A stretch of 20,345 nucleotides of DNA from a virus, in IMG/VR virus record IMGVR_UViG_3300007631_000008, positions 1 through 20,345 of that record. One strand, given 5' to 3'. Both the position numbers and the translations under genes were made by a program. The notes under the pieces are model-generated. The model searched no databases. It saw only the letters and a list, made by a program, of their open reading frames with translations, and was not told where the DNA came from. Shown here in pieces: positions 352 to 12,419 of this stretch; positions within the stretch are counted from its first letter, which is position 1; the number at the start of each line of letters is the position of its first letter.

Positions 352-2670
352 TTAAGCCAGTGTTCCGCAGTCGAGCGTTCCCTCAACCGTGAGGTTGCCC
401 GTGATTTGCTGATTGCCAGTAAAGCTGTTGCCACCGCTTAGCTGCGCCTTGAGCGATTCAAGCTCGTCGATCGCGGCCTGAACATCGGCAGCGGTCAGTC
501 CGGATGAGGCGTTGTCATAGCTGACCTGATCGGCGCTTGCAGTCGCCACTTGCCAGGCGCTGCCGGAGTAGACGTAGAGCGCATCAGCGCTTGTGTTGAA
601 GTACAGATCGCCCGCCTGGAGCGCCGAGCCGTCTTTGCGCGTACTGGGTGCGTTGCTGCTCGCGCCGATATAGACATCGGCAAAGTTGGTCACATCGCCA
701 AGATTGTCGGCGACCACGCCCACATCGGCGATATTTGCGCTCACGTTCTGCACATCAGTGGCGTTGCTTGCCACCGTGTTCACGCTCGTAATGTCTGCCG
801 CCACGGTGCTGATATCGGTGGCATTCCCCGCCGCAGCGGTTACATCCGAGCTCACCCCCGAGACCGTGCTCACATCGCCGTCAATAAGCGCAACGGCGCT
901 CACATCGGCATTGATATTGGCTACCGTCTGCACATCGGTGCGAATGTTGTAGACCGTTGTGAGATAGCCATCCGGAACCCCGTCAGGGGCGGTTGATGGC
1001 TCGGTGATACTGCCGAGATCTGGGCCAAATGCCGCGCCCGCTAGATCGCTTGAGACAGTCTGGATTTTGGTGAGATTGTCGTTCACCGAGCTGACGTCTG
1101 AATCAACAGCAGCGACTGCTTGCACATCAGTAATGCTGCCGGCGACGGTGTTGACGTTCGCCTCATTGGCGTTGAGCGTTGTCACGTCTGATGAAATGCC
1201 CGCGACCGTGGTCACGTCAGGCTGAATGCCCGCGACCGTTGTCACATCAGGATGGATGCCCGCGACAGTGTTGACGTTGCCAATGTCGGCGGCGACCACG
1301 GTAATGTCCTGACCGGGCCCGACGTAGCCTGCGACCGTGGAGACTTCGGTGGACCGCGAGGCCACCATCGTTACATCCGAGTCGATTCCGGCAATCGTCT
1401 GAACATCGGAATCAACGGCTGCGACGTCGGTGATGGCTGACCCGATGCCCGCAACCGTCTGCACATCGCCACGAATGTTGTAGACCGAGATAATGTAGCC
1501 ATCGGGTACATTGGTCTGCGCCTGCGCGGGCTGGGTGATTGAGCCCAGATCGTAACTGAACGACCCACCCGCCAGATCGCTGCCAACGGTATCGACCACC
1601 GAGGCATTGATGGAGACGTTATTGATCTCTGTCTCAATGCCCGCCACCGCCGTGATATCGGTGCTAATGCTGGCGGCGGTGCTGACAGCACCCGAGTTGG
1701 CGTCGACTGCCTGGACAGCCGGAGCAATGGAGTTCACGCCCGTGACCGCGGAGCCAATGTTCGCCACTGCGGTAACATCCGCCCCAATCCCAGCCACGCT
1801 GACAATGTAGTCGCTATCCGCTGCGACGACGTTGATCTTGTCAATATCCGTGGCGACGGTGCCAATATCGGCAATACCGCCGGCAACGGTGCCGATCGTG
1901 TTCGAGCCAGCCAGATCTGCGGCGATGATCGTGACATCTTTGCCCGCGCCAATCTCGCCCGAGACGGTGGAGACGTCGGCAATATCTGTGGCAACGGTGC
2001 CGATATCCGCAATGTTTGTGGAAAGGGTGGTGACATTGGGGTCGGTCGCCCAATACTTGGCCGAGAAATGCGTGCCATCGACCGTTCCATCGGTCTTAAT
2101 CGCCCAGTCTCTGGCGGAGCCAATCGACCCATCAACGCCGCTGCCGCCGATGGCGTAGGCCTTCGCCGAGTAGTCGCTGGAGTCGACCTGACCGCTGGTG
2201 CGAACTGCCCATGCCTCGGCCTCGTCCTCGCTCGCCTTGGCGGCGGCTTTGGCGGCCTCGACGTCGCTGACGTTGATCGCCAGATCCGTTTTGCCCGAGT
2301 CAATGCTCGCACCCGAGACATGGCGAAGCTCGACGACGTACAGGTTTTTGGTGGCCGGATCGCGGAACACGTCATTGACGTAGTACTCGACCCCCGATGC
2401 GTAGTCACCTCGCCAGGTAAACCCAGCGAGCAATGCCATTGCGCCGGTATTGTCAAAGCCGACGACCTTGTTCCGGCGCTCCGTTGCGGTCGCGGCGACC
2501 TCATGATCGGAGCCATCCGCCGCCAGCTTGAGCGATCGCGCGGCATCGGTGGCAACATCCGAAAACCCGGACGCGACCTCATCGAACTTGCCATCTACCT
2601 CGTCAGCGCGCACCGTCGTGCCGGGCTGGAAGCGCTGACCCTCGTCAGAGTTGTCATAGTAGTTAGCCAC
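352..2670 (-). CDS. Repeat-rich tail fibre protein, 772 aa
   Basis: Structural tail fibre. The start is GTG at 2670, overlapping the upstream stop by 8 nt (GTGGCTAA). The N-terminus (about residues 1-50) looks like a virion-anchoring fibre domain. It is followed by a W-R-G-D-Y / YYVNDVFRDP segment (about 85-115) typical of small beta modules in fibres, an Ala/Glu-rich helix, and EAWAVRT and SAKYWATDP segments. From about residue 210 to 660 there is a long array of roughly 7-residue units of the form D-V/I-x-x-V-A-G/x (such as PDVTTVAGIQ), which suggests a shaft of regular beta or helical repeats. A 44-residue module occurs twice. The C-terminus has a GDLYFNTSADALYVYSGSAW module and a short NLTVEGTLDCGTLA end. 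No enzymatic motif is visible. The exact fold and receptor are unknown. Confidence 0.85.
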   Translation of the reverse strand: MANYYDNSDEGQRFQPGTTVRADEVDGKFDEVASGFSDVATDAARSLKLAADGSDHEVAATATERRNKVVGFDNTGAMALLAGFTWRGDYASGVEYYVNDVFRDPATKNLYVVELRHVSGASIDSGKTDLAINVSDVEAAKAAAKASEDEAEAWAVRTSGQVDSSDYSAKAYAIGGSGVDGSIGSARDWAIKTDGTVDGTHFSAKYWATDPNVTTLSTNIADIGTVATDIADVSTVSGEIGAGKDVTIIAADLAGSNTIGTVAGGIADIGTVATDIDKINVVAADSDYIVSVAGIGADVTAVANIGSAVTGVNSIAPAVQAVDANSGAVSTAASISTDITAVAGIETEINNVSINASVVDTVGSDLAGGSFSYDLGSITQPAQAQTNVPDGYIISVYNIRGDVQTVAGIGSAITDVAAVDSDVQTIAGIDSDVTMVASRSTEVSTVAGYVGPGQDITVVAADIGNVNTVAGIHPDVTTVAGIQPDVTTVAGISSDVTTLNANEANVNTVAGSITDVQAVAAVDSDVSSVNDNLTKIQTVSSDLAGAAFGPDLGSITEPSTAPDGVPDGYLTTVYNIRTDVQTVANINADVSAVALIDGDVSTVSGVSSDVTAAAGNATDISTVAADITSVNTVASNATDVQNVSANIADVGVVADNLGDVTNFADVYIGASSNAPSTRKDGSALQAGDLYFNTSADALYVYSGSAWQVATASADQVSYDNASSGLTAADVQAAIDELESLKAQLSGGNSFTGNQQITGNLTVEGTLDCGTLA
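919..1050 (-). repeat. 44-residue fibre module, copy B
   Basis: Encodes SDLAGAAFGPDLGSITEPST and then PDGYLTTVYNIRTDVQTVA. It aligns without gaps to copy A at 1450-1581, with the same SDLAG, DLGSIT, VPDGY, VYNIR and DVQTVA blocks. Both copies are embedded at the same phase in the D-V-x-x-V-A array, so the fibre grew by duplicating a larger segment as well as single units. Confidence 0.85.
1450..1581 (-). repeat. 44-residue fibre module, copy A
   Basis: Encodes SDLAGGSFSYDLGSITQPAQ and then VPDGYIISVYNIRGDVQTVA, the partner of copy B at 919-1050. The start-to-start distance is 531 nt (177 codons), which gives the size of the presumed duplicated segment. Confidence 0.85.
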
Positions 2671-4767: not shown

Positions 4768-5171
4768 GCCCGAACCTCACGATGGATCTGGAACGGGTAG
4801 GCATGAACCTCCTGGCGCTCCATGTTGCTCGGGTCGTAGACGTACTGCACCGCGTGATCAAGCACCTCAACCACGGCAGCCGGGACGGTGACCTTCTGCC
4901 CGCGCTTGATGACATAGTTGTAGCCATTGACCGATACCGGGACGGGCTGCTTGTCCTGACTGTCCTGAGCGATGCTGATCTCGTACTTGATCTCGCCCTT
5001 CGTGGTCAGATCCGGGCCCTCGGTGATCTCCGGCGTTGGCTCGCCCAGGTGCGTGCGAATGCGCTCGGCGAGCTTGGCGTCGGTGATGTTTGAGCGGAAC
5101 TCGATGCCGAGATCAGCGGCGGTCGTCTCCAGATCCTCGCGGCTCATCTCGCTGACGTTGATTTCGGACAT
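4764..5171 (-). CDS. Virion-region protein with N-terminal HeH/SAP-like motif, 135 aa
   Basis: ATG at 5171 is preceded by GGAG 8 nt upstream. A longer in-frame start at 5210 lies inside the terminator hairpin and has no good ribosome site. Residues 1-45 (MSREDLETTAADLGIEFRSN followed by ITDAKLAERIRTHLGE) look like the two-helix HeH/LEM/SAP fold seen in several small phage proteins. Residues 78-135 form a second part, with YNYVIKRGQKVTVPAAVVEV and HAYPFQIH, a beta-rich segment found in proteins next to capsid genes. It may be a minor head protein or decoration factor; the sequence does not settle this. It follows an intrinsic terminator, so its transcript depends on readthrough or antitermination. 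Confidence 0.7.
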   Translation of the reverse strand: MSEINVSEMSREDLETTAADLGIEFRSNITDAKLAERIRTHLGEPTPEITEGPDLTTKGEIKYEISIAQDSQDKQPVPVSVNGYNYVIKRGQKVTVPAAVVEVLDHAVQYVYDPSNMERQEVHAYPFQIHREVRA

Positions 5172-5195
5172 TGCTGTTTCTCCATGTCGGAAATG

Positions 5196-5219
5196 AAAAG
5201 CCCCGCTCAAAGGCGGGGC
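5196..5219 (-). terminator. Intrinsic terminator after the 49-aa gene
   Basis: On the minus strand GCCCCGC-CTTTGA-GCGGGGC is followed by TTTT: a 7-bp all-GC stem, a 6-nt loop and a short U-tract. It lies between the stop of the 49-aa gene (5246) and the start at 5171. It should lower transcription of the tail genes relative to the capsid genes unless RNA polymerase is modified. Confidence 0.8.
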
Positions 5220-5245
5220 CGGGGGATATTGGGATAGGCCGGAGC

Positions 5246-5395
5246 CTATTTTTTCTTGGCGGTCTTGGCCGATCGTTTGAACGCTTTGTCCGTTGGCCGC
5301 CCTGCTTCACCCTTGCGAGCCATGCGCTCATTGGAGCCGTTTTTGATCCGCTCGCGCTTCTGGTGAATGTTGGTATACAAACCGTTTTTAGCCAT
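5246..5395 (-). CDS. Small basic phage protein, 49 aa
   Basis: ATG at 5395, stop TAG at 5246. It reads MAKNGLYTNIHQKRERIKNG, then SNERMARKGEAGRPTDKAFK and a Lys-rich end (AKTAKKK). This very basic mini-protein with the LYxNIHxKRxRI start recurs beside capsid genes in many podophages, usually unannotated. The charge suggests it binds DNA or the inner capsid surface; that is inference. It sits alone between two hairpins (5412-5442 upstream, 5196-5219 downstream), directly after the major capsid gene. A second Lys-rich mini-protein of exactly 49 aa is encoded at 14245-14394, with little sequence similarity beyond composition. Confidence 0.85.
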   Translation of the reverse strand: MAKNGLYTNIHQKRERIKNGSNERMARKGEAGRPTDKAFKRSAKTAKKK

Positions 5396-5411
5396 CAGGC
5401 ACTCCAATCAG

Positions 5412-5442
5412 AACGGCGCCACCCGCTTGGGGCAGCGCCGTT
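5412..5442 (-). terminator. Strong hairpin just after the major capsid gene
   Basis: Minus strand AACGGCGCTGCCC-CAAGC-GGGTGGCGCCGTT forms a 13-bp stem (two G-T pairs) with a 5-nt loop, 10 nt beyond the capsid stop. Only CTGATT follows it, so it lacks a clear U-tract. It may be a weak terminator or a 3'-end stabiliser for the capsid mRNA. Confidence 0.6.
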
Positions 5443-5452
5443 GCCGGCCTAC

Positions 5453-6445
5453 TTACGAGAGATCGCTGGCCGCGACCTCCAGTCGATGGGTCCAGGATTC
5501 GTTGAGAATCTTGGCCACGAAGTAGGTTTTCCAGCCGACCGAGCCCTTCTGCCCAAGCGGGTCGCCGCCGCGCGGGGTGTCAGGATTGAGCACCTTCGGC
5601 GTGATGGCGTTGGCCCCCTTGAGCGGGATCAGCCCGTAGGCGTCCTTGGCCACATAAACGACCGGGTAGACGTCGACGTTGCTGCCGTCGTTGACCATGC
5701 CGTTGGTGGTCGAGGAGCCCGCGCCCTCGTAGTTGTCGAGCACCGGGGAGAGGACATAGCGCACGTCCTCCACCTTGCCGATCTCATGCGGCAGCGCGTC
5801 CATCGAGCCGTACTGCTCGGTGGGCGTGAAGCCCGGAAGATCGCGGATGTCCGACTCGAGATCGGTGTGGGCGAACGCAATGAACGCCGGCGCCACGGGG
5901 ACCGTCTCGTAGTTGGGCGAGGCGGCAACCATGTTGGTCACCTTCTTGCCGCGGTTCGCCTTGATCGACCGGGTGATGGCCCGCTGCTTGTCGAGGCTGA
6001 TCGGCGTGTTCACGTCCGAACGGCTGGTGCCGTTGGCATAGAACACCGAGGTTCCGGCCCGGAGCGCGCCCCAGGTCTGGATCTCGACCGTCTCGGCGGC
6101 CTGCTCGCCGCACAGCATCGAGGCGTCCGAGAGCACCGGGTCCTCGGCCAGGTCGTTGACCACATCGGTGATCTCGACGAAAGCACCCCACTGATCCAGC
6201 TGGACCTGAACGTCCTCGTACTGCATCTGCTGGGCGGTCGGGGTCGTACCCTCGGTGAGCGCCGTGCTCAGCCCGCCGAACGGGACCGGACGCCGGAACT
6301 TGACGGTATCGGCCTTATTCTTCGGCAGCGGCTTGGACAGGCCAAACTTGGAGAGAACAAGGATGGGCTCCGCGTGCTGGAGCATTTCGGTTGCGGCCCA
6401 CGCAGCGGTACGCTGCGAGATAGTGCCGTAAGTCGTGGTCGCCAT
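5453..6445 (-). CDS. Major capsid protein, N4-gp56 family, 330 aa
   Basis: This is the shell protein of the head, expected to have the HK97 fold. ATG at 6445 is preceded by GAGGT 8 nt upstream, inside the last codons of the scaffold gene. Family features visible are LTEGTTPTAQQMQYEDVQVQ, WGAFVEITDVVNDLAEDPVL, GEQAAETVEIQTWGALRAGT, a central HTDLESDIRDLPGFTPTEQY and the late VGWKTYFVAKILNESW. Together these match the N4-gp56 group of major capsid proteins by pattern, and about 330 aa is a normal length for it. It follows a coiled-coil scaffold gene with only 6 nt between them, the usual scaffold-capsid pair. Strong hairpins follow it, consistent with high expression. Confidence 0.9.
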   Translation of the reverse strand: MATTTYGTISQRTAAWAATEMLQHAEPILVLSKFGLSKPLPKNKADTVKFRRPVPFGGLSTALTEGTTPTAQQMQYEDVQVQLDQWGAFVEITDVVNDLAEDPVLSDASMLCGEQAAETVEIQTWGALRAGTSVFYANGTSRSDVNTPISLDKQRAITRSIKANRGKKVTNMVAASPNYETVPVAPAFIAFAHTDLESDIRDLPGFTPTEQYGSMDALPHEIGKVEDVRYVLSPVLDNYEGAGSSTTNGMVNDGSNVDVYPVVYVAKDAYGLIPLKGANAITPKVLNPDTPRGGDPLGQKGSVGWKTYFVAKILNESWTHRLEVAASDLS

Positions 6446-6451
6446 GGTGTA

Positions 6452-7321
6452 TTACCTCTTTTTGGCGTAGTGATTGAATGCAGCCTCGAAGTCCTCCGGC
6501 GCTCCTGCCTTCGGCGCACCCCCTCGGCGGGGGACGCTTTGAGCGGAGGCCAGACGCTCCTGGCGTCGATCTGGATTGCTGGCAGCAGCCTCGCCACCTG
6601 CCTGCGACTTGTAGAGATCCATCAACGCGGCGGCTTCCGCGGCGTCATTGGATTCGGTCAGTCGACGCAGTGATTCCGGCTGCTGGTTTAGCCATTCAGT
6701 AAACGCCGGCGCAGCGACCACCTCTTGCCAATCAGGATGGCGGGCTTCTAGCGCGCTCACCTGAGTCTTGAGGTATTGGCTCTGGGCCTGTTCCTGGATG
6801 GGTTCCACAGCGGTCTGGAGCTGCTCCAGCCGCTGCTCGAGTTGCGCCTGTCGCTGCCTGTCGGCCTCAAGACGCTGGGCCTCGGCGGACAGTCTGGCTT
6901 CAAGCGCTTTTGCGACCTCGGGGAAGTCCTGTTTCAGCGATTCCCAGTCCTCGGAGCCAGCCGCTTCGGCCGCCTCCTGACGCTTCTGGTCGTCGCTGAC
7001 GTTGGATTGCCCCGCGGGTGCCTGGGTCTGCTGCAGTTGGGCCTGCAGCTGATTGATCTGTCGCTGGTACGCGCCAAGGCGGCCGCGCTGGCTGGCCTCG
7101 GAGTGCTTGAGCTTCTGGTTTTCGGCCTCAATCGCCGCCAGCCGCTTGGCAAGGTCCTCCTCGCCCGGCTGCTCGGCTGGCTCCTGCTCGGCCTCCGGTG
7201 TCTCGGCTGTGTCATCAGCCTCCGGGGCGTCGTTGCTCACCTCGCCGGTGGCGTACTCAGCGAATGCAGTCTCGTATTCGTCCTCGGACTGCGGCTCATT
7301 GTCGAGCGGCTCGTCAGTCAT
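6452..7321 (-). CDS. Capsid scaffold protein, 289 aa
   Basis: Probable internal scaffold that guides procapsid assembly and is then lost. The start chosen is ATG at 7321, with AAGGAG 8-9 nt upstream. An in-frame ATG at 7345 exists but abuts a terminator U-tract and has no ribosome site. The N-terminal 55 residues are very acidic (EPLDNEPQSEDEYETAFAEY, then repeated Glu/Asp). Residues about 60-190 are a Gln/Glu/Ala coiled coil, followed by a charged region. The C-terminus reads APKAGAPEDFEAAFNHYAKK, with the basic tail that scaffolds use to bind capsid subunits. Position between portal and capsid, composition and length all fit. Scaffolds diverge fast, so this is context plus composition. Confidence 0.85.
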   Translation of the reverse strand: MTDEPLDNEPQSEDEYETAFAEYATGEVSNDAPEADDTAETPEAEQEPAEQPGEEDLAKRLAAIEAENQKLKHSEASQRGRLGAYQRQINQLQAQLQQTQAPAGQSNVSDDQKRQEAAEAAGSEDWESLKQDFPEVAKALEARLSAEAQRLEADRQRQAQLEQRLEQLQTAVEPIQEQAQSQYLKTQVSALEARHPDWQEVVAAPAFTEWLNQQPESLRRLTESNDAAEAAALMDLYKSQAGGEAAASNPDRRQERLASAQSVPRRGGAPKAGAPEDFEAAFNHYAKKR

Positions 7322-7738: not shown

Positions 7739-9925
7739 TCAACCGTAGCTATCAAACCCCATGGACTGATTGCGCTCTCGCGCCGCCCGCTCGGCCTGCT
7801 TGTCGGCGAGCTCGGCAGCGGCCTTGTCGCGCTCGGTCTGCATCTTGGCAGCGGTCTGCTCACGCTGGGCTTGCAGCTCGGCGGCGGTCTTTTGCATTTC
7901 CGCCTCCAGCTTCTGCGATTCCAGCCCGGCCTTTTGCTCCAGCTCCGCTAGGGTGACGCCCTCCTTGAGCGCGATCTCAAGCCGTGCCTTTTCCTGCTCG
8001 GTCTGCAGTTGAGCGGCTTTGTGCTGCTGCTCGAACTGCTGCTGCTGGGATTTGAGCTGCATTTCCTGCGCGGACTTCTGGGCGTCGAGCTCGGCCTGCT
8101 GCTGCTTGAGCTGCTGTTCGGCCTGCTTGATCTGCAGCTCCTGCATTTTGAGCTGCGTCTCGGTGTCGGGGCCTTGCTGCTCTTGCTGCTGCTCGAGCTC
8201 CTCGTCGTCGATCGTGACGTTATCGGCGCTCACCGACATGGTGCGCAGGATCTCTTTGTACATGGCCTGCCAGTCGGTCATGCGGGCGAACTCGGGATTC
8301 GAGCCGGCGAGCTGGGCGAGCATCATGAGCTTTTCCTGCTGCTCCTCGCGGGCGATCAGCACCGACGTGCCCTTGGCGACCGTGTCGAAATCCCCCTTGA
8401 TCTCGGGGCGATCGGTGTAGGCCATGTGGAAGTCATAGAAACGGCGCACCGTTGGCACCGTGACGCCATCGTCGAAGTTCTTCACCGCCGAGCGCAGGAC
8501 GATGTTGGAGTTGTTCATGAGCATCTGCATGCCCGTTGCGGTCGACGCCCCCGGGCCCCCGCTTGTGCCCTCGCCCTGGAGCAGGATCGGCAGATTGGTC
8601 TCGGTGTCGGCGAGCTGCTGCGCCATCTGGAAAATGGCCGACAGGTCGCCCTGATTGGAGTTGATGTTGTAGACGCCGAACGCCTGATCGACCGGGACGT
8701 CACCCGTCGCCTGCCAGACCTTCATGCGGTTGATCTGCCAGTCCCCGTCAGCGGGCGTGACAGCCCGCTTGTTGACAATGATCTGCGGGCCTGCCGAGAC
8801 AGCCGCGTTATCCATCATCATCCGCCAGGCGGCGTTGGTGACCTTCTGCGGCTGGCGCATGAGATAGGGCACGCCAAAGCCGAAGATCGAGCTGCCATCG
8901 GCCTCCCAGTTGAAAACCGAGTAGGGGATCGCGCCTGAGTCGAGCGGGTTGAGCCTCGCCTTGACCACCTTGTTGCCCACCATGAGCACCGAGCCGGTGT
9001 ACTCCACCAGCGGGTCGTCATCGACTTCGACGCCCGCGACTCGGAGCTCGTCTTTATCGAGCGGCCCCCAGTACTCCCACAGCTCCCAGCGCTTGGCCGT
9101 GGAGACCGTGTCGACGCCGGTGATCTCGCGCAGCTCGTCGCGCCGATCGTTGGCGATGTGACCCTGACTGTCCTCGTCCTCCATCGCCTGACGGAGCTGG
9201 TCGAGCATTACACCCGGCAGCTCAGCGAGTTCGCGCAGCTGCTTACGATTGATCAACTTGCGCTCGAAAACGAACTCGGCCTCGTCCATGCTTTGAGCCG
9301 ACATATCCGGGAAGAAGTCCCACGGGTCCACCCGCTCCACTGAGGGCCGGTATTCCTGCTGGATCTCAAGCGCGGACTGACCCGTCTGCGGATCGGTGCT
9401 CCATGCCTGACGGGTGCGATTGACGATCGTCGGCCCTTTCAGAACGCCCGTGCCGTAGATACAGGCGTCCTCGATAATGTCGCGGGTGTGCGCGTAGTAC
9501 CGCGCCTCCTCGAAATCGTCGGCGATTTGCTCCTCCATCGCCCGCGCCGCCTCGTCCGCGCCCTCTTTGGCCGCCTGCTTTTCCTCGTCCGGCACCAGCG
9601 CCGAGGTCTCGGGAATGGGTGTGGGCTTGATGCCGTAGTTACGGTCATCAGCGGGCAGGAGCATATCCGCGAGCCGCGAGATTGCCGCCCGGGTTTTGTT
9701 GCGGGTGATGTTGACGTAGACCGAGCTGCGGCCCTCCATGCGGTCCAATTCCTGCGGCGTATACTCGCCGTGGTACTGACGCAGGTCAGCGAGCCAGCGC
9801 GTTTCGATCATCTGTCGCGCGGAAACCTGATCCTGGGCGAGCCGGTGGAGCTTTGAGCCCAGCACCTGCAGATCTTCCTCGCGCTTTATCTCCTCGGGCG
9901 AGCGATCGTCGGTCGTGTAGTCCAT
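7739..9925 (-). CDS. Portal protein with Gln-rich C-terminal coiled coil, 728 aa
   Basis: This forms the dodecameric DNA entry ring of the head. The start chosen is ATG at 9925, with GAGGG 5 nt upstream; an adjacent ATG at 9928 and a TTG at 9937 are also possible. Portal-like features are the early helical LHRLAQDQVSARQMIETRWL, then VYVNITRNKTRAAISRLADM, KRWELWEYWGPL, and the long helix-forming stretch around PYLMRQPQKVTNAAWRMMMD. Residues about 570-715 are an extremely Gln/Glu/Ala-rich coiled coil that could build a barrel extending into the capsid, as in P22-like portals. The length of about 730 aa matches large podophage portals. It follows the terminase nuclease ORF by 8 nt, the usual terminase-portal-scaffold-capsid order. 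Confidence 0.9.
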   Translation of the reverse strand: MDYTTDDRSPEEIKREEDLQVLGSKLHRLAQDQVSARQMIETRWLADLRQYHGEYTPQELDRMEGRSSVYVNITRNKTRAAISRLADMLLPADDRNYGIKPTPIPETSALVPDEEKQAAKEGADEAARAMEEQIADDFEEARYYAHTRDIIEDACIYGTGVLKGPTIVNRTRQAWSTDPQTGQSALEIQQEYRPSVERVDPWDFFPDMSAQSMDEAEFVFERKLINRKQLRELAELPGVMLDQLRQAMEDEDSQGHIANDRRDELREITGVDTVSTAKRWELWEYWGPLDKDELRVAGVEVDDDPLVEYTGSVLMVGNKVVKARLNPLDSGAIPYSVFNWEADGSSIFGFGVPYLMRQPQKVTNAAWRMMMDNAAVSAGPQIIVNKRAVTPADGDWQINRMKVWQATGDVPVDQAFGVYNINSNQGDLSAIFQMAQQLADTETNLPILLQGEGTSGGPGASTATGMQMLMNNSNIVLRSAVKNFDDGVTVPTVRRFYDFHMAYTDRPEIKGDFDTVAKGTSVLIAREEQQEKLMMLAQLAGSNPEFARMTDWQAMYKEILRTMSVSADNVTIDDEELEQQQEQQGPDTETQLKMQELQIKQAEQQLKQQQAELDAQKSAQEMQLKSQQQQFEQQHKAAQLQTEQEKARLEIALKEGVTLAELEQKAGLESQKLEAEMQKTAAELQAQREQTAAKMQTERDKAAAELADKQAERAARERNQSMGFDSYG

Positions 9926-9933
9926 CATTTCCC

Positions 9934-10656
9934 TCAATAGCCCGCGGTCGGGTCGCCCGGCAGCTGCGGCTTGATCGCCGGCTTGGTGGATTTGGTCACA
10001 GCGTGGTGAATGCCCATTACGAGATAGCGGGTGCCGTCCATGAGGTGATCGTGCTCTTTGACCACCCGGCCCTTATCGTCGCGCCGATAGATCCGATACT
10101 CGGACAGCCAATGCTGGAGCGTCGAGAACACTCGGAGCCGGCCGGTCGAGAGTCGATCGAGCATTTCCATCAGCCCCGCCTCAACCGCCTTGTCCGCTTT
10201 GTTGAGGATCAGCCCCTCGTCCTCGTAGAGCTCCCAAAGGCTCTTGCCGTCCGCCTGGCTGCGTCCCCGGGCGGCGGTATCAATCACCCCCGGAATCCAG
10301 TCGCCCCGCATACGGATGGCTTTGGCGTGGATCGGCACCTCGGCCTGGCCGCGGTAGTGCTCGGAGTAGAGGTAGATCGTGTCGGATTCGCGATCGTAGG
10401 CACCCCACACCGCGGCCGTGCGATTCCAGCCGACGTCGAGTCCGTAGAGTCGCGGATACCAGGACGGAATCTGGAACGGCTCGACCAGCACGTCATCCTC
10501 GGGCACCGGGAATATCGCGCCCGAGCCCAGCGTCGGCGTGCCGTTCATGCGCGCTTCGAGCTGATGGGGCGCGATCGAGCGACTCATGTCCTCGATATCC
10601 TGATCAGTCAGGTGCGGCACGTCCCGCCACCCCGCTTGCACGACGTATCGACTCAA
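9934..10656 (-). CDS. terL: Large terminase, nuclease half (separate ORF), 240 aa
   Basis: This is the RNase H-fold nuclease domain that cuts concatemeric phage DNA. It begins SRYVVQAGWRDVPHLTDQDI, which in one-piece terminases directly follows the ATPase domain. Acidic candidates for the metal site are D74 (LYGLDVGWNRTAAVWG), D126 (GVIDTAARGRSQADGK) and D203/D207 (EHDHLMDGTRY). All are intact, so the domain is probably active. The start is a TTG at 10656 overlapping the upstream stop (TTGA), with GTG at 10641 as the alternative; an in-frame TGA further upstream shows this frame cannot extend to the ATPase ORF. With the ATPase half (237 aa) it totals 477 aa, a normal TerL length. It is not a decayed fragment. 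The split is described under findings. Confidence 0.85.
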   Translation of the reverse strand: MSRYVVQAGWRDVPHLTDQDIEDMSRSIAPHQLEARMNGTPTLGSGAIFPVPEDDVLVEPFQIPSWYPRLYGLDVGWNRTAAVWGAYDRESDTIYLYSEHYRGQAEVPIHAKAIRMRGDWIPGVIDTAARGRSQADGKSLWELYEDEGLILNKADKAVEAGLMEMLDRLSTGRLRVFSTLQHWLSEYRIYRRDDKGRVVKEHDHLMDGTRYLVMGIHHAVTKSTKPAIKPQLPGDPTAGY

Positions 10657-10772
10657 CCCGGAACCCCGGCGTAGCGCTCGCGGAGCGCCTCGATAGCGGC
10701 CTGCCTGCGCCGAGCCACCGGGTCAGACTCCCACTCGTCGAGCACTTCGGTGACGCGATATCGCTCGGTCAT
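10653..10772 (-). CDS. Small ORF between the terminase halves, 39 aa
   Basis: ATG at 10772, stop TGA at 10653. It overlaps the previous ORF by ATGA and the nuclease ORF by TTGA. The protein is helical and basic in its second half (DPVARRRQAAIEALRERYAG), with EVLDEWESDP before it. Not recognised. Exact end-to-end coupling on both sides argues that it is translated, perhaps mainly to deliver ribosomes to the nuclease start. Confidence 0.6.
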   Translation of the reverse strand: MTERYRVTEVLDEWESDPVARRRQAAIEALRERYAGVPG

Positions 10773-10963
10773 GTCCGCACCCAAAGTTCAATACCGCCCA
10801 GATCCAGCCGCTTGCCCGGGTAGGCGCTGCGATCAATGCGGCTCGCCAGCGACAAGGGAATCGTCCCGCCGGTCACGCCACGCGCCTGCAGGGTTTCGAT
10901 CAGCTGCTGACGAATGCTCGCGGTCGCGCTGCGCTCGCCGGGTAGGTATTCCTGGTCGCTCAT
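10769..10963 (-). CDS. Small ORF between the terminase halves, 64 aa
   Basis: ATG at 10963, 6 nt after the previous stop. The ribosome site is weak, so reinitiation is likely. The first half is helical (SIRQQLIETLQARGVTGGTI) and the second half beta-like (GKRLDLGGIELWVRT). There is no recognised domain. It overlaps the 39-aa ORF by 4 nt. Confidence 0.55.
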   Translation of the reverse strand: MSDQEYLPGERSATASIRQQLIETLQARGVTGGTIPLSLASRIDRSAYPGKRLDLGGIELWVRT

Positions 10964-10969
10964 GCGCTG

Positions 10970-11161
10970 TTAACCCAGCACCTGGTGGCGAATGTGCTCG
11001 ACCGCATCAATCAGCCCCTCGGCGTACTCAGCGGCTGACTCAATATCCTCGAGGTCCTCGTCCGGCTCCGGCGGCTCGACGTCAAGATCCAGGCCAAGCG
11101 CTGCAATCTGGCTCGCCAGTTCTAATAGGATGGCAAGCGTTTCCGCTTCGTTGTCTGTCAT
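10970..11161 (-). CDS. Small acidic ORF between the terminase halves, 63 aa
   Basis: ATG at 11161 overlaps the stop of the terminase ATPase ORF by 4 nt (ATGA). It is very acidic: residues 25-45 read LDVEPPEPDEDLEDIESAAE, flanked by two amphipathic helices (TLAILLELASQIAAL and EGLIDAVEHIRHQVL). Not recognised. Its charge and place at the ATPase/nuclease boundary would suit a protein contacting the terminase, but that is speculation. Confidence 0.6.
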   Translation of the reverse strand: MTDNEAETLAILLELASQIAALGLDLDVEPPEPDEDLEDIESAAEYAEGLIDAVEHIRHQVLG

Positions 11162-11871
11162 ACCGGCTCCTGCGCTGCGCGTGATTCCAAGAAGTCCATC
11201 ACCAGCTGGGTGAGGCCCTGCAGCGGGGTGAACGTCATGAACACGATGCCCTGCACCGTCATCGTCCTGACGAGCGCCTCCTCGTAGACGTCCCGGGGCA
11301 CCTCCTCGTCGAGCCACACCACATGCTGCTCAACGCCCTGAAATATCCGCCGGCCCTGATCGTAGCTGCGAAGCGCCAGCCGACTGGTTCCGCCAGCCGC
11401 GTGCTCGACCGGGATCTCCTCGTAAGCATTGGCGATGCCGCGGGAGACCGTGGGTTTGCCGAGGTAGTCACGCGGGATCAGCCCGGTGCCGAACTCGGGC
11501 GTGTCGTAGAGACCGCCGAGGAGCTTGTGCTGGATTATGTCTCTGGTGGTCTGGCTGGTATCGCCCGCGGCCAGCGCCCGGATCGGCTGGTCAAACCGCC
11601 GCCCCTCCCACCAGTCGGGGTATCGCCCGGTGAGGTGGTAGGTCATTTCCGCGGCACCAGCGAAACTCTTGCCGGCCCGGTTGGCCGCCATGAAAAGGCG
11701 TTCTCGGTGGATTGCGCCGGCCCGGAAAAACTCGACGTGCCGCGGATACAGATGCCGCGCATAGGGCCCGTCGTCCGGGAACAGGTCATCAATCAGCCGG
11801 TAGCGCTTGCGCCGCGCTCGCTCCTCGAGCAGCTGCACCAGCTCGCGCTTCTGGTCAATCGTGAGCGGCAT
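11158..11871 (-). CDS. terL: Large terminase, ATPase half (separate ORF), 237 aa
   Basis: This is the ATP-driven motor domain that pumps DNA into the head. Walker A-type AANRAGKS is at residues 62-69, Walker B-type VVWLDEE at 184-190 with the catalytic Glu, and the coupling motif MTFTPLQG at 212-219. The ORF then stops after MDFLESRAAQEPV, where a one-piece terminase would run on into the nuclease domain. The start ATG at 11871 overlaps the upstream zinc-ribbon gene by 17 nt, so it is probably translationally coupled. The N-terminal 40 residues (LVQLLEERARRKRYRLIDDL) are the usual helical lead-in. The nuclease domain follows as a separate ORF about 500 nt downstream. Confidence 0.9.
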   Translation of the reverse strand: MPLTIDQKRELVQLLEERARRKRYRLIDDLFPDDGPYARHLYPRHVEFFRAGAIHRERLFMAANRAGKSFAGAAEMTYHLTGRYPDWWEGRRFDQPIRALAAGDTSQTTRDIIQHKLLGGLYDTPEFGTGLIPRDYLGKPTVSRGIANAYEEIPVEHAAGGTSRLALRSYDQGRRIFQGVEQHVVWLDEEVPRDVYEEALVRTMTVQGIVFMTFTPLQGLTQLVMDFLESRAAQEPV

Positions 11872-11995
11872 AGCCGCCCGGCTTGATCACCGTCCCGCAG
11901 TCAGTACAGCGCAGGTAGTGCACCGGCACGCGGCTCACCGTCTCAGCCTGCCATACCAGTTCGCCACGCCGACAGATCGGGCAATCACTGGTCAC
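11855..11995 (-). CDS. Zinc-ribbon mini-protein, 46 aa
   Basis: GTG at 11995, stop TGA at 11855. It lies between TerS and the terminase ATPase and overlaps both (11 nt and 17 nt). It reads MTSDCPICRRGELVWQAETV, then a beta stretch and LRCTDCGTVIKPGG: two C-x2-C knuckles (C5/C8 and C30/C33) spaced as in YgiT-type or rubredoxin-like zinc ribbons. It probably binds one Zn2+. The role is unknown; the location suggests a packaging accessory or a small DNA-binding factor. Confidence 0.75.
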   Translation of the reverse strand: MTSDCPICRRGELVWQAETVSRVPVHYLRCTDCGTVIKPGGYAAHD

Positions 11996-12419
11996 CTGTG
12001 AGCTCCTTGATCCGCCGGTCCAGATCCTCGTCGCTGATCTCGCGTTGCGGGCTCATCGACCCGTCGCTGGAGACGTTGTCCTGAATCGTGCGCGGGCTGT
12101 GACCCTTGGGCGCCATGCGCTCCGCCGTCCACTTGTAGGCGTCCAGCGCCACCTTGGCGACCTGCGGGCTGATCGTCTCCTGCTGCAGATCCTGGCCGAT
12201 CTCCTGGATTCGATCAGCGTGGATATAGCCCGCGGCCTCGCGCGCCCGGAAATACGCATCGCTGAAATGCGGCTGCGTCCCATCCACAATCCACATCGTC
12301 ACCGTGGACAGCGCCGGCAGGTGATCGTCGCGGCAGATCGAGCGCAGCGACTCGCCCGACGCGATGCGGCGACAGATCTCGCCCACCACTGCGTCATTTG
12401 CGCGTGTCTTGCCACTCAT
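11985..12419 (-). CDS. terS: Terminase small subunit, Sf6-like, 144 aa
   Basis: It recognises the packaging site and recruits the large subunit. ATG at 12419 has AGGAA about 9 nt upstream. The N-terminal helix-turn-helix reads VVGEICRRIASGESLRSICR, then PALSTVTMWIVDG. It is followed by FSDAYFRAREAAGYIHADRI (oligomerisation helices), and VALDAYKWTAERMAPKGHS with the D-A-x-K-W-x-x-x-x-x-x-P block typical of Sf6 gp1-type small terminases. The length is normal. A divergent plus-strand gene cluster begins 122 nt away, and the inverted repeats at 12421-12459 lie directly on its upstream edge, so it may be regulated from there. Confidence 0.85.
   Translation of the reverse strand: MSGKTRANDAVVGEICRRIASGESLRSICRDDHLPALSTVTMWIVDGTQPHFSDAYFRAREAAGYIHADRIQEIGQDLQQETISPQVAKVALDAYKWTAERMAPKGHSPRTIQDNVSSDGSMSPQREISDEDLDRRIKELTGDQ

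Follow-up and report, generated by a model that had tools for sequence, protein, structure and literature searches.

In packaging models, the lid of the large terminase (TerL) carries the power stroke on from the ATP site to the nuclease domain, all on a single chain. In T4 gp17, packaging requires the hinge that links ATPase and nuclease, and the two domains lose translocation when they are separated (PMC9958956). In the TerL of D6E, residues Y213, M216 and R224 belong to the lid and residues 230–241 form the linker between lid and nuclease (PMC5727402). In Arthrobacter cluster AY phages, two consecutive genes encode TerL (PMC11920828). These phages, together with the Jug phages and the Bastillevirinae, are the only cases of split TerL found in the open-licence literature, which yielded no description of a P22-type split TerL or of a break between ATPase core and lid. 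Homing endonucleases have also given rise to phage enzymes encoded by genes in pieces, as in the case of nrdA (Friedrich et al. 2007, as cited in PMC3322345).

A large terminase on two open reading frames

The window, that is, the whole stretch of DNA analysed (20,345 nucleotides of IMG/VR record IMGVR_UViG_3300007631_000008), is part of the genome of a tailed phage, and its head genes lie on the minus strand. The relevant features are as follows.

11985–12419, minus strand: TerS (small terminase), the upstream partner (Sf6_terminase PF20901, E=2e-27; phrog_1482)
11855–11995, minus strand: zinc-ribbon-like ORF of 46 aa (CPIC...CTDC), overlapping the TerS end and the ATPase start
11158–11871, minus strand: TerL part 1, ATPase core, 237 aa (Terminase_6N, E=9e-15)
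10970–11161, minus strand: ORF1, acidic small protein of 63 aa, with an ATGA overlap with the ATPase stop
10769–10963, minus strand: ORF2, 64 aa, a small inter-TerL gene conserved across the window's clade
10653–10772, minus strand: ORF3, 39 aa, with an ATGA overlap with ORF2 and a TTGA overlap with the nuclease start
9934–10656, minus strand: TerL part 2, nuclease ORF, 240 aa, TTG start (Terminase_6C, E=8e-9)
7739–9937, minus strand: portal protein, SU10/P22-like, directly downstream of TerL part 2 (SU10_portal, E=3e-15; phrog_332/phrog_1216)
5453–6445, minus strand: major capsid protein

Part 1 carries a Walker A motif (ANRAGKS), a Walker B motif (LDEE) and the coupling motif (TFTP), and ends 21 residues past the last of these. 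Part 2 begins with a strand and a lid-like segment (residues ~2–42), followed by a linker and an RNase H-like nuclease (~43–240). The Terminase_6N and Terminase_6C matches confirm the preliminary description in placing ATPase and nuclease on two ORFs, and the window's TerL carries the motifs of a P22-type Terminase_6 protein for both the ATPase and the RNase H-like nuclease. Both activities usually occur on one polypeptide in Terminase_6, although this is not strictly defining; here they do not. The two ORFs sum to 477 aa and are separated by 501 nt that hold the three small ORFs. Fused relatives are mostly 460–495 aa in length, which agrees with the normal total length that had been claimed. 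The further claim that nothing is missing does not hold completely, as a poorly conserved linker of ~8–20 residues is absent. The analysis confirms the in-frame stop reported ahead of the nuclease ORF. A second contig (L003) shows the same arrangement, with an ORF1 that is 98% identical, which rules out an error in a single assembly.

The zinc-ribbon-like ORF matches Lar- and TFIIB-type zinc ribbons, in all cases below threshold. Elsewhere in the window, a 772-aa protein (352–2670, minus strand) is built of TVAGI(x)SDVTTVA-type repeats and is probably a tail fibre or needle. An open frame of 500 aa (5171–6673, plus strand) runs antisense to the capsid gene and is most likely a side effect of G+C-rich codon use.

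Position of the break

The ATPase ORF had been described as stopping where the nuclease domain begins. The Terminase_6N profile, however, is covered by the window's ATPase ORF only over positions 1–153 of 215, compared to 1–212 in fused relatives, where the match extends to their residues 292–293. The second ORF aligns with the P22 nuclease structure 4dkw from profile position 42 of 249 (E=1.6e-72), and the nuclease half superposes on this structure with an rmsd of 1.8 Å and a TM-score of 0.86 by target (Foldseek). The second-ORF residues that precede the 4dkw match align to D6E TerL from approximately residue 191–200. By these alignments the second polypeptide starts with the strand before the lid. 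The break is just past the coupling motif and inside the ATPase, and part 2 comprises strand, lid, linker and nuclease. The nuclease ORF thus opens with ~40 lid-like residues, and the split does not separate ATPase from nuclease as had been proposed, but falls between the ATPase core and the lid, leaving lid, hinge and nuclease as one chain.

A fused relative (L012), modelled with AlphaFold2 at a mean pLDDT of 89.8, contains a pre-lid strand (E242–247) that lies in blocks of pLDDT 91–94. When the second half is modelled on its own, the corresponding residues are coil, with a mean pLDDT of 50. Comparison of these two single-chain models suggests that the pre-lid strand may require the ATPase core to form. 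Full-length superpositions with Foldseek gave low TM-scores, which we put down to differing domain orientations, and a search of the PDB by sequence with the ATPase-half profile returned no match at 0.01.

Distribution of split loci

Both halves were compared by tblastn with loci fetched from IMG/VR and GTDB, and the matches were then checked for frame. The preliminary description had pointed to relatives split at the same site as the thing to look for; there are ~112 usable split loci, in IMG/VR contigs and in prophages of bacterial genomes, and the small ORFs in their gaps vary from locus to locus. Fused loci are comparable in number. Loci were fetched by similarity to split ATPases, so their proportions are not estimates of prevalence. 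The figure of 112 counts loci retrieved by similarity, not independent lineages, and deduplication was applied for the tree only. One locus (L155) was excluded because its apparent split is a single stop close to the end of a gene that is otherwise fused.

The break point is identical across the split loci. The first ORF stops shortly past TFTPLxGMSxVVxxFL. The second, which mostly opens with M-[ST]-[RK]-x-V, starts one or a few residues ahead of the conserved block xxATWDDVPHL; a variable linker connects these two blocks in fused proteins. Some of the start codons were picked automatically, and a scan for Shine-Dalgarno sequences was uninformative. The spacers between the halves range from −17 to 2416 nt, being 10 nt or less in 46 of 113 cases and exactly −4 nt in 23, while 59 loci have a gap of more than 100 nt.

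These spacers bear on two ways in which a single TerL might still be made. A self-splicing intron (group I, group II or an undescribed class) or a split intein could join the halves, as had been raised for this locus, and spliced group I introns do occur in terL of the Bastillevirinae (PMC11878797) and Jug phages (PMC12363816). This is nevertheless very unlikely here. The window's gap has no Rfam match at either the gathering threshold or E≤5, no family matches anywhere in the window, and Rfam applied to 20 split loci matched nothing but a tRNA. The spacers are continuous from −17 nt, the 46 shortest leave no room for any intron, and the gap carries selected protein genes that differ between loci. 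The halves also lack intein-like extensions, with part 2 starting almost directly at its conserved block. Programmed frameshifting or read-through, yielding a fraction of fused TerL, is scarcely credible: the exact 4-nt overlap in 23 loci offers a compatible geometry, but frameshifting is impossible over the window's 501-nt gap with a stop in the nuclease frame, and likewise in the 59 loci with gaps above 100 nt.

Split loci are also found in sequenced bacterial isolates (Halomonas sp. McH1-25, Acetobacter musti, Azospirillum, Novosphingobium and Mesorhizobium); since these are cultured bacteria, the split is not an artefact of metagenomes. The isolate closest to the window is Halomonas sp. 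McH1-25, whose prophage locus (L164) is ~74% identical. All 24 scored Mesorhizobium loci are split, and all 11 scored Ensifer/Sinorhizobium loci are fused. The cultured phages among the matches listed (P22, LUZ24-like phages, kuraviruses and vibriophages) all have TerL in one piece, so no split form found here is known to form plaques. The sole two-piece entry among the phage matches listed, MW202785, is a metagenomic record in which two 'large terminase' CDSs are annotated. PHROGs contains a family of unknown function resembling the ATPase half (phrog_31467, length 261) and short nuclease families labelled TerL (e.g. phrog_5653, length 199). Pieces like these halves are therefore already in databases, without comment there.

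Active sites, selection and changes of state

The catalytic residues are kept in nearly every split locus. In the ATPase half, Walker A GK is present in 111 of 112 loci, and both Walker B DE and TxTP in 112 of 112. In the nuclease half, D74 is retained in 112, E159 in 108 and D203 in 110 of 112, which bears out the statement that the nuclease ORF retains its acidic residues. These counts exclude L181, L193, L217, L307 and duplicate loci. Within the window's clade, the ATPase half has a mean dN/dS of 0.13 and the nuclease half one of 0.08, means that omit several saturated synonymous distances. Purifying selection acts on both halves.

These observations argue against a broken TerL, either the pseudogene of a defective phage or the product of a frameshift or assembly error. 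The single ORFs of cultured relatives among the matches listed, and the host-like or IS genes found within or close to the gap at some Mesorhizobium loci, are what a broken gene might lead one to expect. However, dN/dS is well below 1 in both halves, the active sites are kept in 108–112 of 112 loci and the start site is conserved. The window and L003 share the structure on separate contigs, and TerS and the portal gene are intact alongside. We consider a broken gene highly improbable.

A quick-search tree (IQ-TREE) was built from 166 representatives, 78 split and 88 fused, after removal of near-copies at 85% within each state. The tree requires at least 16 changes between split and fused, 11 of which are forced by strongly supported (starred) branches. 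The state has thus changed repeatedly at one site. Part of these changes may be re-fusions, as direction cannot be read from counts of changes. The closest split–fused pair in the tree set is 71% identical, and the nearest fused relative of the window's TerL is 59% identical.

Genes between the two halves

The description of the gap as more than debris is upheld: ORF1, ORF2 and ORF3 are real genes, with homologues in other contigs and pN/pS below 1. ORF2 is the most consistent of the three. A homologue of it, with pN/pS of 0.17–0.53, is located between the halves in ~20 loci that have a TerL 67–100% identical to that of the window. In L007 the homologue is instead just upstream of the ATPase, and L253 and L257 lack ORF2, their halves overlapping by 4 nt. 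No homologue was found among the fused loci searched. ORF1 (pN/pS 0.27–0.72; homologues between the halves in L003, L004, L007 and L009) and ORF3 (0.31–0.49; L004, L005 and L007) are more sporadic. Pfam and PHROGs gave no match for ORF1, and family searches with all three ORFs (Pfam, PHROGs and PDB profiles) gave at most weak matches. The best PDB match of ORF2 is a glucanase (E=0.018), which we take to be chance.

ORF2, which occurs between the halves across the window's clade and is absent from the fused loci searched, might be a third motor subunit: a small protein that would bridge the ATPase core and the lid–nuclease subunit or help to assemble them, giving a three-part TerL. We regard this as rather doubtful.

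The ORFs had been described as joined by overlaps from the ATPase stop to the nuclease start. Three such overlaps are present (ATPase/ORF1, ORF2/ORF3 and ORF3/nuclease), but the chain has four junctions, not the three claimed, and at the remaining one ORF1 and ORF2 are separated by a 6-nt spacer. An ATGA or TTGA at the nuclease start was counted as evidence of coupling only where an ORF ends there, since the A is supplied in any case by the second codon (Ser/Thr, AGN/ACN).

In the gaps of several relatives a small helix-turn-helix-like protein is encoded beside ORF2 (L005:6034–6276, L009:2889–3167 and L004:6474–6758). Its occurrence in place of ORF3 or next to it looks like cassette exchange.

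The contents of other gaps are diverse. That of L009 encodes an Endonuclease_7-type HNH protein (E=8e-23) and that of L030 an HNH protein. In L041 an IS110-type transposase is flanked by long arrays of SEPxxxREP-like units (L041:5772–7635). One gap encodes a homologue of GroES (Cpn10 family), which from its sequence we take to be the 98-aa ORF between the halves of L278 (3400–3696). In Mesorhizobium chromosomes (L213, L221 and others) the halves are up to ~2.4 kb apart with bacterial-type genes between them, including a bestrophin (L213), a solute-binding protein (L221) and a recurrent small lipoprotein. No portal gene was recognised next to the L221 TerL within the fetched flank, and some Mesorhizobium loci may be remnants, or domesticated or gene-transfer-agent-like elements. 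The range of contents fits a linker at the split site that tolerates interruption, with small genes inserted and lost.

The HNH genes of L009 and L030 and the transposase of L041 raise the question of origin. A homing endonuclease inserted in terL could have produced a genes-in-pieces enzyme, the small ORFs being leftovers of the mobile event, and such endonucleases interrupt other phage genes too, terL included (PMC3322345). As preliminarily stated, the window's gap has no endonuclease gene by Pfam or PHROGs, and among the larger gap ORFs scanned only those of L009 and L030 are of this kind; most gaps have none, and directly abutting halves require no insertion. Homing endonucleases are plausible as a cause of fission but not a general one, and as the explanation for this locus we think them possible though on balance unlikely. 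An origin of this type would be compatible with a TerL of two polypeptides.

Proposed assembly of the two polypeptides

Two polypeptides are the best reading of the locus, given the ~112 split relatives, the intact active sites, the purifying selection and the lack of introns. The large terminase is very probably a working two-subunit enzyme, assembled non-covalently; we infer its translation into two proteins, their docking and the packaging activity. The stable two-polypeptide terminase proposed earlier is therefore retained, but not its division into ATPase and nuclease. Polypeptide 1 would be the ATPase core, with the ATP site, catalytic glutamate and coupling motif, and polypeptide 2 would supply the strand after the coupling motif, followed by lid, hinge/linker and nuclease. 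Both would be translated from one mRNA through overlapping or adjacent genes. Polypeptide 2 would then dock non-covalently on polypeptide 1, most likely with its N-terminal strand joining the core sheet and the lid closing over the ATP site, and the docked pair would rebuild a P22-like TerL. Fission of the gene, perhaps with re-fusion, would have occurred repeatedly at the variable linker, with the gap acting as a slot in which small phage genes are gained and lost, as are, on occasion, HNH endonucleases or transposases.

The assumption that covalent linkage is essential has to be refined. The finding in T4 (PMC9958956) concerns the ATPase–nuclease hinge, which is intact here; only the bond between core and lid is missing, and the split can be reconciled with that result. 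In many lineages the covalent core–lid bond is absent while the lid–hinge–nuclease chain is retained. The split thus separates two usually confounded hypotheses as to which link must be covalent, and suggests that the packaging motor need not be one continuous chain. Two polypeptides predict a tight core–lid interface in trans, and split TerL provides ready-made natural split proteins for reconstitution. Tools for virus classification or completeness that rely on TerL may count split loci as partial or duplicate terminases.

Comparison with known systems

The window's TerL shares motifs, their order and total length with P22 gp2-type TerL (Terminase_6N plus Terminase_6C; LUZ24-like phages, kuravirus and P22), but uses two genes rather than one and is broken within the ATPase. 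The terL genes of Jug phages (PMC12363816) and Bastillevirinae (PMC11878797) are likewise in pieces with intervening DNA; there the pieces are separated by group I introns and the RNA is spliced, whereas no intron was found in the window. By analogy with genes-in-pieces enzymes, an essential enzyme would here consist of two polypeptides, but most of the gaps lack an endonuclease and many loci share one break site. The cluster AY phage BillyTP is similar to the window in that the TerL of an isolated phage is encoded by two genes. These overlap, have no genes between them and encode 359 and 198 aa, compared to 237 and 240 aa in the window, and the protein is of a different family, with PF20441 on the second half. 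The cluster AY break is ~100 residues further on than that of the window, as placed by protein lengths rather than structure. Split TerL as such is already known from cluster AY, and the locus described here differs in its break between core and lid with intervening genes.
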